Shown: positions 1,251 through 6,805 of the stretch, piece by piece
Position numbering within the stretch: position 1 is the stretch's first letter
Layout: each line of letters begins with the position of its first letter
IMG/VR virus record: IMGVR_UViG_3300030104_005549
Location: 1 to 23,895 of that record
Reading direction: 5' to 3' (one strand)
DNA from: a virus
DNA length: 23,895 nt
The notes under the pieces: model-generated
What the model saw: the letters and a program-made list of their open reading frames with translations, nothing else
What the model was told of the DNA's origin: nothing
Database searches by the model: none
Made by a program: the position numbers and the translations under genes

Positions 1251-2414
1251 ATGAAGAATACCCATCTAGAACACTTAGAAGACGAAATCCTCAATACTGG
1301 CACTGCTGGTGGATTCAATGTCGTTTCTGTACTCAGATCATTTGGTAACATGCTTACAGGCAATAAGTCTGATCTAAGTGTTACTACTAAGTGGGATGGT
1401 GCTCCTGCGATTATTTGTGGTACAGATCCTGTTACTGGCAGATTCTTTGTTGGTACTAAATCAGTATTCAACAAGATTACACCTAAAATATGTTATGATG
1501 ATGTTGATGTTGATCGTTTCTATCAAGCAGAGATATTGCGTTCAAAGTTAAAAGATTGTCTTAAGTATCTTCCTCAATTAAATATCAAAGGTATTGTTCA
1601 AGGAGATTTATTATTCTCATCAGGAGATAAAAAATATGCTAGTATCGGTGGACATAGAGTTATTACATTCAATCCCAATGCGATTACTTATGCAGTATCA
1701 TGTAAGTCAAATCAAGGTATATCAGTAGAGAAAGCAAATATCGGTATCGTATTTCACACAGTTTATGAAGGTAGCACTATACAAGATTGCAAGGCAGTAT
1801 ACAAAGCACCATTATTTGTAGGAACTGAAGATATATTCATTCCCAATGCTAATTTCAAGGATGCTCAAGGTATTAGTCGTTTTGATAATACTCAGAAGAT
1901 CAAGTATATTGCTACTATCAATCGTGCAGAGGGTTCACTTAAGAGAGCATCAAGATTCCTTGATATTATGCACACTCATGGACAGTCTAGATTCTTAATG
2001 CCTATACTATTCAAACAGTTCTTCAATACACAGATTCGTACTGGTAAAACTATTGTAAACACTAGAAGGACAGTTGCACAGTTTGCTAAGTTTTATTCTG
2101 ACAAGTTAGATGCAGAGATCAATACTAAAACAAGTGCTAAAGGTAAAGCAAGATACAAACAAATGAAGTTAGAAGGTCTCAACTTTATCTCTAGATATCA
2201 GAATGAGATATACTTTACATTTGCATCATACATTTCTATTCGTGATGCTAAGAGAATGGTTATTGCTCAGTTAAATAAGGTTGGACAGATAAGAACATAT
2301 ATAGGAAACACACCAACAACTCCAGAAGGATATGTTGTTTCTACTAACAACTATGCTCTAAAGTTTGTTGATGATGATTTTAGAAAAGCAAACATTCTCT
2401 TTGGAATACAATGA
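1251..2414 (+). CDS. Nucleotidyltransferase/polynucleotide-ligase-fold protein (KxDG motif)
   Basis: The protein has 387 residues from ATG 1251. It carries a set that resembles the covalent nucleotidyltransferase motifs of DNA/RNA ligases: K47-W-D-G (motif I, the lysine that would take AMP), GRFFVGTKS (63-71, motif III-like), GIVQGDLLF (114-122, motif IV-like) and EGYVV with a later ALKFV (359-373, motif V-like). An alpha-helical insert of roughly 150 residues separates motifs IV and V. I recall a conserved cyanophage family with this N-terminus (THLEH, then a KxDGAPA motif), usually annotated as hypothetical. ATG 1251 is preferred because GTG 1203 lies inside the promoter box and the THLEH start fits the family; GTG 1236 behind GAGG is an alternative. 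It overlaps the halogenase gene by ATGA. Ligase or capping-like chemistry is inferred, not shown. Confidence 0.6.
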   Translation: MKNTHLEHLEDEILNTGTAGGFNVVSVLRSFGNMLTGNKSDLSVTTKWDGAPAIICGTDPVTGRFFVGTKSVFNKITPKICYDDVDVDRFYQAEILRSKLKDCLKYLPQLNIKGIVQGDLLFSSGDKKYASIGGHRVITFNPNAITYAVSCKSNQGISVEKANIGIVFHTVYEGSTIQDCKAVYKAPLFVGTEDIFIPNANFKDAQGISRFDNTQKIKYIATINRAEGSLKRASRFLDIMHTHGQSRFLMPILFKQFFNTQIRTGKTIVNTRRTVAQFAKFYSDKLDAEINTKTSAKGKARYKQMKLEGLNFISRYQNEIYFTFASYISIRDAKRMVIAQLNKVGQIRTYIGNTPTTPEGYVVSTNNYALKFVDDDFRKANILFGIQ

Positions 2415-3718
2415 AAAAAATTGCTGTTATCGGTGCAGGTGTTATTGGTATCAATTCTATTCTTCAATTAATAGAAGATAGAACCAAGGCAGATTTAGAG
2501 AATGAATATAAAATAGTGTGGATATATGATACATCAACAGATATATTTGGTATTGGAGAGTCAACAACTCCATCATTATCAGGACAGATTGCTAGTCCAC
2601 CATCATATTTAAGATATGATTCTAAAGATTATTTTGATGCCACTATCAAGCATGGAAATAGATTTGTAGGATGGGGTAAGAATGGTGGAGACTTTACTAG
2701 GTATTTTCCTATGAGCACTGCTGCTATTCATTTTGATACCAGATTATTCAGTAGTTTCTTTATTGAGCATTTAACTAACGAGAGTTCATATAATTTTGAA
2801 GCAAGAGATACTAAGATAAAATCTATATCTTTCGATGAAGATCCTATAGGTGGACATTGCTTTGGTGTTCTAATTGATGGGGAGGCATTTGATTTTGTAT
2901 TAGATTGTAGTGGTGGTAAATCATTGGTGAATGATGATTATTACTTTGATTCACCCTTTGAAACATGTAATACAGTTCTTGCTACTAGACTACCAGAACC
3001 TGCAGACTGGGGTTATACATTGACACAGACCACTCGAAATGGTTGGATGTTTGGAATTCCATTACAAAGCAGGAGAACATATGGTTATGCTTATAATTCA
3101 AGTTTGACCACTGAAGAGGAAGCACAGCAAGAGTTCAGAAGTTTAGTAAAACAAGATGGACATCAATATAATAAGTTTACATGGAGACCTAGATTCTCTA
3201 ATTATGTTCTACATCATAGTGGTAGATATGCTCGTAATGGTAATGCGTTGGGATTTCTAGATCCACTTGAAGCATTGGCAGGTATGTATTATGATAGTGT
3301 AACAGATAAGATGGCAGACTATGCTCTCGGCGATACATATAATAACATAGATCTTATTAATAATATCAACAGTTGGTATTATCAGGAGGTTGTTGGAGAC
3401 TGGTTACTAAATGCTGCGTGGATGTATCATTTTGGTTCAGAACATAAAACTCCATTCTGGACACAAGTTCAGAAAAATGCTAGAGATATATTAAATAATA
3501 AGGAGATTAATCCTTGTCGTTTAATAAGTGATGAGCAAACATTTACTGATGACTTGTTTAATATTATAGGGGATGACCCAGAAATGAAAAAGTTATTTGT
3601 TAATGATTTACTTGATGTCGAGTTTACTTTCGATTTTTGTCGTGACTATTATAATTTCAGTTCATTTACTAAAGGAATGAGTGCAGATTATGCAAACAAG
3701 TTTCCTACATTTACATAA
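2411..3718 (+). CDS. Flavin-dependent halogenase (tryptophan-halogenase family, VirX1-like)
   Basis: This 435-residue protein has the features of FADH2-dependent halogenases. It has an N-terminal Rossmann signature GAGVIG (8-13) and a GESTTP loop (49-54) matching the family's GE[ST]T.P. K80 sits in DATIKHGNRFVGW at the place of the catalytic lysine that forms the halogenating species. GWMFGIP (211-217) is the WxWxIP diagnostic with the second Trp replaced by Phe. LDPLE (283-287) supplies the conserved acidic residue. These enzymes oxidise halide to HOX at FAD and steer it to a substrate. VirX1 of cyanophage Syn10 is a characterised phage relative. No flavin reductase gene is visible here, so host reductase is presumably used. 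It overlaps the upstream gene by 4 bases and is followed after 3 bases by a paralogue. Confidence 0.85.
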   Translation: MKKIAVIGAGVIGINSILQLIEDRTKADLENEYKIVWIYDTSTDIFGIGESTTPSLSGQIASPPSYLRYDSKDYFDATIKHGNRFVGWGKNGGDFTRYFPMSTAAIHFDTRLFSSFFIEHLTNESSYNFEARDTKIKSISFDEDPIGGHCFGVLIDGEAFDFVLDCSGGKSLVNDDYYFDSPFETCNTVLATRLPEPADWGYTLTQTTRNGWMFGIPLQSRRTYGYAYNSSLTTEEEAQQEFRSLVKQDGHQYNKFTWRPRFSNYVLHHSGRYARNGNALGFLDPLEALAGMYYDSVTDKMADYALGDTYNNIDLINNINSWYYQEVVGDWLLNAAWMYHFGSEHKTPFWTQVQKNARDILNNKEINPCRLISDEQTFTDDLFNIIGDDPEMKKLFVNDLLDVEFTFDFCRDYYNFSSFTKGMSADYANKFPTFT

Positions 3719-3721
3719 CTT

Positions 3722-5107
3722 ATGACTAGAAAAATTGCTATTATTGGTGGTATTGATGCTGTACAAGTATTATTGAATTGTGTATCACATAGAGATACTA
3801 TCGATGGAGTGTATCAAGATGATGAGATAGTTTGGATTCGTGATTGTTCTCATGTTATTGATGATTATGGTATACAAACTGAGTCCGAGTGGGGAGAAAT
3901 AGTTGGAGAGAATACTACGCTAAGTTCAATACATCTATCAAGATTGTTAGATGGTAAACAAAAGTGGGGTAAAAAGTTTATTGGATTTGGTAATGTCACA
4001 GCATATAATTTCTATGTGTTGTATGAACCAACTCATGTAGGTTGGCATCTAAATGGTAGAAAATTTGTAGATTTATTCTGGAATAATTATACTAATACTG
4101 CTAGAAATGTAAGAATGATCGATGCTCATGTAGATAATATTGATGTGCAGGAAGATTATGTTAAAATACTTGATGATAAATATGATTTTGTAATTGATTG
4201 CACTAGAGGTGCAATATGGGATCACAATTCTTATAGTGAAGCATTATATAATCCAACAAATGCATCTCTAACTATTCACAAGAAAGTAGAGGGTAAATGG
4301 AATTATACTGCACATATTGCATGTAAACATGGATATCTAACAGGCATGCCAACTAAGGATGCTCAAACATGGATATATTCATATGATAAGGACTTAACAA
4401 CACTTGATGATGCTATTAAAGATTTTAATGAGCATTGTGAGATAAGTGTGGGAGAGTTGCCAAAGATAAATGAATATGATAAAATGTTATCAGATTATTG
4501 TATTCACTCTAATAACAGATATGCTAGATGTGGTCGTGCATTGGGGTTTAATGATGAATTAAACAACTTTAAAAACTATCTTGAAGGAGATTTAGCAGAA
4601 GCAATTGCAGAGTATTTGTTTTTAGATCCTGAGAGACAACAAACAGAGTATCAAAGATTAGATGTAGTGGACAGATATGAAGATGGCAAAAAAGATTGTG
4701 CATCATCGCTCGGTTTCTATCTACAAGAAGGTTCTAAATATAAGACTGAGTTCTGGGAACAAACTAGAACAAATGCTTGTTTATGTTTAGAGAACAGAGA
4801 ATACTTTGACATATCTACAAATCTCATCCAACATGAATATCTTAAAATGAATGAACTTATTCCATTACATGAGAATATTCGTTTAGATTATTTTAGGAGA
4901 CTAGCAGAGGATGAACAGCGTTTGAGACAAAAACAAACACATAATTCTGACGAACCTTATAGATTATTAGGGAGTTATCAGATATTTACTGAGACTACTA
5001 GAGGTCTCGGTTCACCTTATGCTCACCTATTTCCATTGATGACAGAATTGATCCCACCAACATCCGAAGCATTCGGAGAAATTAACCTTGATCCAATACT
5101 ATGGTAG
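3722..5107 (+). CDS. Degenerate flavin-halogenase paralogue, probably non-catalytic partner
   Basis: At 461 residues it aligns colinearly with the upstream halogenase at recognisable anchors. MTRKIAIIGG matches MKKIAVIGAG; DGKQKWGKKFIGFG matches DATIKHGNRFVGWG (K81 aligns with catalytic K80); FVIDCTRG matches FVLDCSGG; NNRYARCGRALGF matches SGRYARNGNALGF. Key residues have decayed: the GxGxxG loop reads GGIDAV, the GESTTP loop is unrecognisable, the WxWxIP site reads GYLTGMP, and LDPLE has become NDELN, losing the conserved Glu. It is slightly longer than its neighbour. It is intact and uninterrupted, so it is not a pseudogene. A structural or substrate-binding partner of the active enzyme is the simplest idea, but that is inference. 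Confidence 0.7.
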   Translation: MTRKIAIIGGIDAVQVLLNCVSHRDTIDGVYQDDEIVWIRDCSHVIDDYGIQTESEWGEIVGENTTLSSIHLSRLLDGKQKWGKKFIGFGNVTAYNFYVLYEPTHVGWHLNGRKFVDLFWNNYTNTARNVRMIDAHVDNIDVQEDYVKILDDKYDFVIDCTRGAIWDHNSYSEALYNPTNASLTIHKKVEGKWNYTAHIACKHGYLTGMPTKDAQTWIYSYDKDLTTLDDAIKDFNEHCEISVGELPKINEYDKMLSDYCIHSNNRYARCGRALGFNDELNNFKNYLEGDLAEAIAEYLFLDPERQQTEYQRLDVVDRYEDGKKDCASSLGFYLQEGSKYKTEFWEQTRTNACLCLENREYFDISTNLIQHEYLKMNELIPLHENIRLDYFRRLAEDEQRLRQKQTHNSDEPYRLLGSYQIFTETTRGLGSPYAHLFPLMTELIPPTSEAFGEINLDPILW

Positions 5108-6082: not shown

Positions 6083-6300
6083 AGTTTGACCCTAATAGCA
6101 TTCCATTAAGGAATACATCACAAGAATTCGAGTACGAGAAAATATCAAGAGAAATTGATCGATGTGATGATATAAAGGAATTGCAAAACATGTGTAAATT
6201 TCTACTCAAGTTAGAAATGAAAACTAGGGAGACATATAGTATAATGATTGCTGATACTATTGAAGCAATGGATTTGGACTTACCACAGGACAGTTTGTAA
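6079..6300 (+). CDS. Small helical protein, unknown function
   Basis: The 73 residues are predicted largely alpha-helical and acidic (EFEYEKISREIDRCDDIKEL, then a Leu/Lys-rich second helix). The pattern suggests a helical hairpin. It is the last gene of the 1251-6300 unit, and its stop at 6298-6300 abuts the promoter box at 6301. It is somewhat reminiscent of short cyanobacterial helix-hairpin proteins, but no motif supports a name. Confidence 0.65.
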   Translation: MKFDPNSIPLRNTSQEFEYEKISREIDRCDDIKELQNMCKFLLKLEMKTRETYSIMIADTIEAMDLDLPQDSL

Positions 6301-6344
6301 AGTGTACACTAGGTGGTTGTCAGACCTATTGAATCGTGTATAAT
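6301..6344 (+). promoter_or_regulatory. Promoter: palindrome AGTGTACACT, TTGTCA, TATAAT
   Basis: A perfect 10-bp palindrome AGTGTACACT (6301-6310) sits 28 bases before TATAAT (6339-6344). A fair -35, TTGTCA (6317-6322), has a 16-base spacer. The predicted transcription start is about 6350-6352, exactly where the 5' strand of the long RNA helix begins (6351). Confidence 0.7.
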
Positions 6345-6350
6345 AGAAGA

Positions 6351-6600
6351 GCGAAACAGTTAAGGGTTCATCTACTCTAACAGTTTTGAGAATGGGCAAA
6401 CGCAAGGCAGGGGTGAGCAACAATTCAGATGATCTTTGATCACGCTGTGGATAACTGCTCTTTATGTTTGGAGACCTCTTGTACTCACAGTTTGAAACTG
6501 TCAACTTAGTTGCTTGAGTTTTGAAGTTGTAAGTCCCATTCTCAAACAAGAAGTAGAGACATGACGATGAATTAAAATTACATTACCCTTAATGTTTCGC
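6351..6600 (+). ncRNA. Candidate structured RNA of about 250 nt
   Basis: No convincing gene is encoded here, but the ends pair. GCGAAACA (6351-6358) and TTAAGGGT (6360-6367) are complementary to TGTTTCGC (6593-6600) and ACCCTTAA (6585-6592): 16 bp with one bulged G (6359). Inside, TCATC (6368-6372) can pair with GATGA (6566-6570). TTTGAGAATGGG (6385-6396) pairs perfectly with CCCATTCTCAAA (6535-6546). The core 6397-6534 offers short hairpins: GAGCA 6415-6419/TGCTC 6456-6460, TGATC 6430-6434/GATCA 6438-6442, ACAGT 6487-6491/ACTGT 6497-6501, and CAACTT 6502-6507/AAGTTG 6524-6529. The 5' end matches the predicted start of the upstream promoter. No terminator directly follows 6600, so it may be processed or act as the leader of the 6624 gene. 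It lacks tmRNA, RNase P or 6S landmarks that I know. Confidence 0.6.
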
Positions 6601-6623
6601 CCACTCTTTATATACAACATTAC

Positions 6624-6758
6624 ATGAACAAGTTCAGCATGAAAAACACTAAATCAGAATTACTTAGTGCTATCAAGCAAGACTCAAATGTATTAGAAGA
6701 AAGAAACTTTCTTGCATGGGCATTTTTTATAGTTCTAGCATGGGGTTTATTATTCTAA
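6624..6758 (+). CDS. 44-residue single-span membrane protein
   Basis: ATG 6624 (or in-frame ATG 6639) to TAA 6756-6758. A polar N-terminal half (KSELLSAIKQDSNVLEER) precedes one strongly hydrophobic C-terminal helix (FLAWAFFIVLAWGLLF). It sits between the structured RNA and a strong terminator, so it is probably translated from the same transcript. There is no clear Shine-Dalgarno. The family is not recognised. Confidence 0.55.
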   Translation: MNKFSMKNTKSELLSAIKQDSNVLEERNFLAWAFFIVLAWGLLF

Positions 6759-6781
6759 GGTCAATTAAATAACTGTCACAG

Positions 6782-6805
6782 GAGACCTGTTAGGTCTCTT
6801 TTTTT
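6782..6805 (+). terminator. Rho-independent terminator
   Basis: GAGACCT (6782-6788), loop GTT, AGGTCTC (6792-6798), then seven T (6799-6805). This is a perfect 7-bp stem with immediate U-tract. It closes the unit that starts at the 6339 promoter. Confidence 0.9.

Follow-up and report, generated by a model that had tools for sequence, protein, structure and literature searches.

The stretch at positions 6351 to 6600 of this viral DNA raises the question of whether long helices nested over 250 bases mark an RNA that acts in its own right, and of what such an RNA would do for the phage. The window, by which we mean the whole 23,895-nt stretch analysed here, is taken from its sequence for a fragment of a T4-like cyanophage. 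A megablast search with it returned 23 records that match over short stretches (Synechococcus 14, Prochlorococcus 4, Cyanophage 3, Marine virus 2). Elsewhere in the window, 2411-5107 holds two ORFs side by side, 435 and 461 aa long; the first matches tryptophan halogenase (PF04820), and the second looks similar by eye. At 37-544 both strands carry long open frames with repetitive translations, one minus-strand frame being rich in Pro and Gly, which would fit a fragment of a collagen-like repeat gene at the window edge.

A helix search of 6351-6600 on the + strand returned exactly three perfect Watson-Crick helices of at least 8 bp, 6351-6358/6593-6600, 6360-6367/6585-6592 and 6385-6396/6535-6546. 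The first two form the closing helix P1, whose 5' strand (6351-6367) consists of GCGAAACA, a bulged G6359 and TTAAGGGT and pairs with the 3' strand at 6585-6600; the third is the 12-bp adapter helix P4, with TTTGAGAATGGG as its 5' strand. A first-pass annotation of the DNA had placed both helices at precisely these coordinates, bulged G included, and the smaller TCATC/GATGA helix that it described between them (P2, 6368-6372/6566-6570) is present both in the sequence and in the minimum-energy fold. It had overlooked P3, CTCTA/TAGAG at 6375-6379/6554-6558, which sits between P2 and the 12-bp helix in the minimum-energy fold and covaries in relatives. Two unpaired segments accompany these helices in the alignment: ACATGAC (6559-6565), a conserved internal-loop strand leading from P3 to P2, whose conservation is overstated as it is part of the search patterns, and the 3' bulge ATTAAAATTACATT (6571-6584) from P2 to P1, conserved in class 1, of which ATTAAAATTA is likewise part of a search pattern.

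The annotation's argument that such nested helices are improbable by chance holds up. Any perfect 12-bp helix appeared in 8 of 2000 dinucleotide shuffles, and a 12-bp helix plus an outer helix of at least 8 bp spanning more than 225 nt in 0 of 2000. Folding energy points the same way, the window RNA being more stable (-72.4 kcal/mol) than its dinucleotide-shuffled counterparts (-57.2 ± 4.5 kcal/mol; 200 shuffles, 0 as good, z = -3.4). Chance inverted repeats are ruled out by the shuffles and by covariation.

To a distant blastn search, two single-cell marine viruses responded, each sharing a different part of the RNA; one of them (L017) shares the outer part, with arms that have changed together. 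Relatives were then gathered with patterns from the 3' half of the RNA, so that conservation within that half is overstated. The collection holds 64 distinct scaffold instances, window included, of which 40 belong to the window's class 1, 10 to class 2, 10 to class 3 and 4 to others. For 27 of the 37 distinct class-1 sequences, 30 named pairs (4 of them outside P1 and not formed in the window) form in 96.2% of 809 cells, and 11 of the 30 show double-sided changes, a number reached by 2 of 500 shuffles (mean 7.1). The covariation score for these sequences is 0.246, against 0.099 when shuffled and at most 0.061 in slid controls. When all 37 were considered over the 26 pairs of P1-P2-P3, 98.2% of cells were paired and 11 of 26 pairs had changed on both sides, and RNAalifold recovered P1, P2 and P3 with the alignment as sole input. 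The compensatory changes proposed as a check on the helices are thus found in the relatives, and scaffold O, defined here as P1-P2-P3 with compensatory changes, emerges as a family.

P3 takes the forms CTCTG/CAGAG, GTCTG/CAGAC, CTAAG/CTTAG, GACTG/CAGTC, CCTG/CAGG, CCTTG/CAAGG, CTCTA/TAGAG and CTCCG/CGGAG, a list that displays diversity and is no test of pairing, because the scan behind it (84 hits, 2 discarded as false) demanded P3 and P2 pairing. A covariance model built from class 1 alone matched 9 of 22 records at E up to 0.1; three of these (L137, L017 and L123) contain model-building sequences and six do not, the latter including S-SSM4 (E 7.7e-6) and P-SSM7 (E 0.0016), so that relatives outside class 1 are reached from class 1 alone. 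The same model left P-SSM2 and P-SSM5 unmatched, though both carry the scaffold, and its match in the window (6514-6609) is out of register because of the large insert. Where copies were detected, there was one per record, both by pattern (11 of 20 records; up to 3 mismatches, the backwards control matching once in 3 of 20) and by covariance model (9 of 22), and both methods miss large-insert and divergent copies. Minimal scaffolds beat shuffles by a modest margin only (z -0.2 to -2.0 for six stretches, two of them clipped at one end). In a swap test of 65 instances, the mean energy was -23.0 kcal/mol with the own 3' flank and -16.1 kcal/mol with swapped ones; the own flank was the best partner in 12 and among the top five in 30, and it is seldom best because relatives share arms. 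At five loci (L026, L053, L056, L124 and L133) the halves are mismatched to each other, and these may be recombinants or assembly chimeras.

The annotation had treated the 250 bases as a single RNA. As a structured unit this stands, but 6394-6537 is a separate element that it did not see: cassette B, held in the apical loop of scaffold O and, by sequence search and profiles, also occurring outside the scaffold, as in MH319755.1. In a set of 68 instances, which includes four added from named phages, 13 have an empty apical loop (at most 6 nt) and 55 have inserts. Scaffold inserts measure 3-222 nt and fall by shared 11-mers into 14 groups, some of them composite and two alike by eye, or about a dozen types. 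When profiles of six cassettes were run against 268 loci, overlapping ones and ones on a common contig included, hits numbered 126 for A, 60 for B, 84 for D, 68 for E, 11 for F and 43 for G; the cassettes occur alone, in tandem or within the scaffold. RNAalifold gives each its own fold, with double-change pairs numbering 3 for A (8 sequences in the profile-made alignment), 13 for B (36), 7 for D (38), 3 for E (9), 4 for F (5) and 3 for G (14). An adapter stem, TTTGAGA/TCTCAAA, links the scaffold to B or D, and in other loci it flanks D. These comparisons establish a conserved scaffold with an apical loop open to interchangeable structured cassettes, B in the case of the window, and that the RNA is structured and modular is in our judgement nearly certain.

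Scaffold O is not the only host of inserts. A second core, C2 (CCCTGAGAC...GTCAGACATCT), takes the same kinds of insert at 11 distinct sites (L008, L062, L074, L112, L113, L148, L155, L195, L203, L234 and L262), its 5' half having been found at 10. C2 has its own closing helices and is another unclassified RNA motif. In L155 and L203 the whole scaffold core lies within the C2 loop, and both fold so. In L119 and L179 the scaffold core is placed, by eye from its flanks and not by folding, inside the first loop of cassette D, and the reverse nesting, D within the scaffold, occurs in L031, L047, L053 and L059 (L031 and L047 folded). The class-1 model R1 aligned to L203, L230 and L179 over core positions 22 to 66 or 70 only (E 0.0004, 0.0065 and 0.23). 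A comparison of two phages adds an exchange: cassette A follows the scaffold in P-SSM2 and lies inside it in P-SSM5, between leader flanks that are 98.8% and 95.7% identical, and this swap is independent of metagenome assembly because both records are isolates. We consider it somewhat more probable than its opposite that marine T4-like cyanophages keep a combinatorial RNA system of interchangeable cassettes, nested up to three deep and in both directions, in which the leader is exchanged independently of the gene that it drives. Such a pool would comprise O, B, D, A, E, F, G, the second core C2 and others, and its nested forms would be O holding D, D holding O, and C2 holding an O that itself holds another insert.

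The annotation recognised no known class, and our searches concur: Rfam 15 gave no match at the gathering threshold in the window or in 20 related loci, and permissive scans of three stretches returned sub-threshold matches only. Two cyanophage motifs call for comparison, manA and wcaG, both of them candidate riboswitches according to Weinberg et al. 2010 (PMC2864571). Neither manA (RF01745, at least 55.2 bits) nor wcaG (RF01761, at least 42 bits) reached its cut-off in the window or the 20 related loci; among 13 records, genuine manA copies are found at other loci in 5, and wcaG in none above cut-off. With R1, five manA loci yielded a single match (E 0.59) on the opposite strand. Covariance-model scores, separate loci and this cross-search rule out a manA or wcaG variant. 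Like the present RNA, manA is structured, carried by T4-like cyanophages and located in potential 5' UTRs, as PMC2864571 describes it; by eye, its P-SSM2 copy lies just past a TATAAT box and its copies seem to have long-range closing pairs. It differs in sequence and in its locus within the same genomes (142837-143034 in P-SSM2). The manA RNAs that we noted (L163-L167) are from P-RSM6, P-SSM2, P-TIM68 and two single-cell viruses. Since the P-SSM2 manA starts soon after TATAAT, closure of the 5' end may be more widespread among the leaders of cyanophages. The likeness of wcaG, a cyanophage and marine motif (PMC2864571), ends with its failure to match the window. An origin in the host is also rejected: the exact 18-base core pattern, the only one searched in this way, has 3 matches in 257 billion bases of genome contigs, where about 7 are expected by chance, and all 3 lie in MAGs titled other than cyanobacteria.

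Large structured bacterial RNAs include GOLLD, ROOL and OLE, the first two of which are also known from phages. They form homo-oligomeric complexes (PMC12286853), in contrast to the modular leader considered here, which has no Rfam match. Literature searches on cyanophage structured and non-coding RNA, promoters, riboswitches and P-SSM2 intergenic RNA brought up no description of these elements that we recognised among the matches listed, subscription papers and preprints being poorly covered. Passages of PMC9964418, PMC2864571, PMC2518516, PMC3037559, PMC5082946 and PMC10976474 deal with manA, wcaG, glnA, PhotoRC, CfrI, host ncRNAs and promoters, and not with these elements.

Where, then, does the RNA lie in relation to genes? 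Five cultured phages, S-SSM4, S-SSM6b, P-SSM7, P-SSM2 and P-SSM5, carry the scaffold unannotated. It is intergenic in the four of them with annotation examined, save for an aligned stretch in P-SSM7 that overlaps the end of the dam gene by 15 bases. A same-strand ORF of at least 70 aa covers the scaffold in 1 of 82 instances and an opposite-strand one in 9; the conserved coding frame that the annotation had named as a refutation was found in none of this set. The window's own 89-aa minus-strand ORF (6280-6549) has no counterpart of at least 60 aa in L030, L046 or L067, the three other loci with the window's scaffold and cassette. A protein-coding explanation is ruled out by these surveys of overlapping and downstream ORFs. 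The last RNA element usually lies within some tens of nucleotides of a mechanically called ORF, gaps above 100 nt also occurring, and identical RNA parts precede differing genes in relatives. Downstream proteins include DUF7717/phrog_818, phrog_1987 and a basic MPTA family that has no match, in a tally that is rough because of the first-ATG rule, at least 9 (MDVP) frames starting inside cassette E. In L016 a phrog_36653 protein, labelled anti-restriction, follows the leader (past 2300), and proteins resembling it in appearance follow other leaders (L258), which hints at a link of the leaders with host-takeover genes. In S-SSM4 (L273, 1370-1510) we noted by eye an unannotated, very basic 41-aa ORF right after the scaffold, and then tRNA-Val; this peptide recurs behind the scaffold of L115.

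Upstream of the window RNA lies a sigma70-type promoter, TTGTCA-16-TATAAT (6317-6344, + strand), which agrees with the consensus at 11 of 12 positions, its -35 element occupying 6317-6322 and its -10 element 6339-6344 across a 16-nt spacer. Simple matches of this sort are frequent, 10 on both strands of 1.6 kb against 6.8 in shuffles, but it is the best among the 10. G6351 is the 7th base past the -10 box, and the predicted start falls, as had been pointed out, on the first base of the outer helix. Downstream, 23 nt separate P1 from the ATG of a 44-aa ORF (6624-6758, + strand), and P1 leaves the start codon uncovered. The ORF has a C-terminal hydrophobic stretch by eye and no Pfam or PHROG match, and a close relative of it lies 3' of the RNA in L030 and L039. 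A simple terminator scan placed an intrinsic-terminator-like stem-loop followed by a T run at 6780-6800 (+ strand) and, within the window, detected no such site on this strand in 6351-6623, nor between 6600 and 6624. The window has no tRNA or tmRNA. Taken together, promoter, ORF and terminator-like site point to a single small transcription unit.

In part of the family, a start on the first base of P1 is likewise predicted. With P1 starts set by motif, 21 of the 24 distinct loci of the window-type, class 2 and class 3 have a -10 box (5/6 or better) whose end lies 4-9 nt ahead of P1; among 20,000 positions drawn at random from these loci, coding DNA included, the rate is 6.7%. This split by scaffold class was made after the sequences had been seen. 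In the other class-1 type, represented by 25 distinct loci, that place never holds a sigma70 -10 box, and a motif close to TAAAGTGT is found at near-constant distance instead. With all scaffold types together the count is 21 of 49, and five of the 68 instances (L056, L121, L134, L155 and L160), in which P1 is unrecognisable by motif, were left out. A motif close to TAAAGTGTnnnnATAGTG was also seen 5' of class-1 scaffolds at many loci, and before a scaffold-less gene in L017 (copies at about 2845-2885 and 3520-3555); it could represent a kind of phage promoter that lacks the sigma70 -10 box.

Structure, modularity, swapping and intergenic position are thus demonstrated on the sequences themselves. 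For function, the annotation had left a choice between a free RNA, a host-targeting RNA and a leader of the peptide at 6624, and position and relatives favour the last. Intergenic placement, with the last element close 5' of an ORF, makes it very probable that the RNA is a cis-acting leader, and in the window the context points to an mRNA of roughly 450 nt that would encode the 44-aa peptide and end near 6800. Our preferred, though tentative, explanation is that the RNA is the cis-acting 5' mRNA leader of a T4-like marine cyanophage, with a locked 5' end that shields the mRNA and a core docked by a factor. Transcription would begin on the first base of P1, as read from the promoter position, and the 5' end of the mRNA would lie within the helix from birth. 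The locked end and the compact nested domains would then shield the phage mRNA from 5'-end decay by RNase E and RNase J, and a phage or host factor would dock on the conserved core. Conserved unpaired bases (CUA, ACAUGAC and the 3' bulge) are not needed by a plain protective stem, so something may read them too. That protection is the main job of the leader is a still more cautious proposal. RNase E is present in cyanobacteria, as is an RNase J that is probably essential (PMC10989914), and the Prochlorococcus podovirus P-SSP7 raises host RNase E, its transcripts being described as protected by antisense RNAs (PMC9692554). Against protection, the account in PMC10989914 places RppH, the would-be exposer of 5' ends, in E. 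coli only so far. One scaffold per record, where detected, is also fewer than would be expected of a general armour, though in searches that miss copies (those of P-SSM2 and P-SSM5 among them).

Two other readings keep the RNA in cis, and we regard both as unlikely. The leader might be a nascent-RNA antiterminator that binds the elongation complex in the manner of HK022 putRNA, terminators then being passed. This agrees with the promoter starts predicted for some scaffold types, with the genes that follow and with conserved loops suited to recognition of a fixed partner, and there is the precedent of putRNA, a structured RNA of phage origin whose cis action on early transcription goes through direct contact with RNA polymerase (PMC9378689). 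The likeness to the proposed leader is by description only, and interchangeable cassettes do not figure in that source's account of putRNA. In the window, however, the terminator-like site comes after a single 44-aa ORF, so that read-through would have to be assumed. Alternatively, each cassette might be an aptamer or protein site and the tandem or nested arrays a combined logic on expression. That the RNA sits in 5' leaders, occurs in tandem and keeps unpaired bases conserved in its cores would suit such a ligand- or protein-sensing switch, as would the candidate riboswitches already listed for cyanophages (PMC2864571). The window leader, however, shows no terminator-like site inside it in the simple scan and hence no visible switch platform, P1 stops 23 nt short of the start codon and covers none, and the downstream proteins named by family share no obvious pathway.

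Less probable again is a small RNA that is released from the leader by processing and acts in trans, as a free molecule, on a host RNA or protein. In keeping with this, the 250-nt unit is compact, closes on itself and has a promoter of its own, but no terminator-like site lies between 6600 and 6624, and relatives keep the RNA 5' of ORFs while the gene changes. We find it very improbable that the cassettes are mobile RNAs of a selfish kind, intron-like for instance, which do no more than tolerate the leaders they sit in. The same cassettes do occur at many sites, and at different places in near-identical phages; yet no Rfam family matches, introns and ribozymes included, the inserts of 3-222 nt are short for an enzyme gene, and the closing helices are kept by covariation.

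In viruses of marine cyanobacteria, then, some messages appear to open with a folded RNA of no recognised class, composed of interchangeable, sometimes nested cassettes. Structured leader RNAs are well known, but we know of none with reciprocal nesting of interchangeable domains. A bench test is possible now, because the cultured phages P-SSM2, P-SSM5, P-SSM7, S-SSM4 and S-SSM6b carry the RNA, and expression work in cyanobacteria may find in the cassettes a supply of ready-made structured RNA parts. Should the leaders protect or boost phage messages, these very abundant marine viruses would have in them a counterpart, at the RNA level, to counter-defence by proteins.
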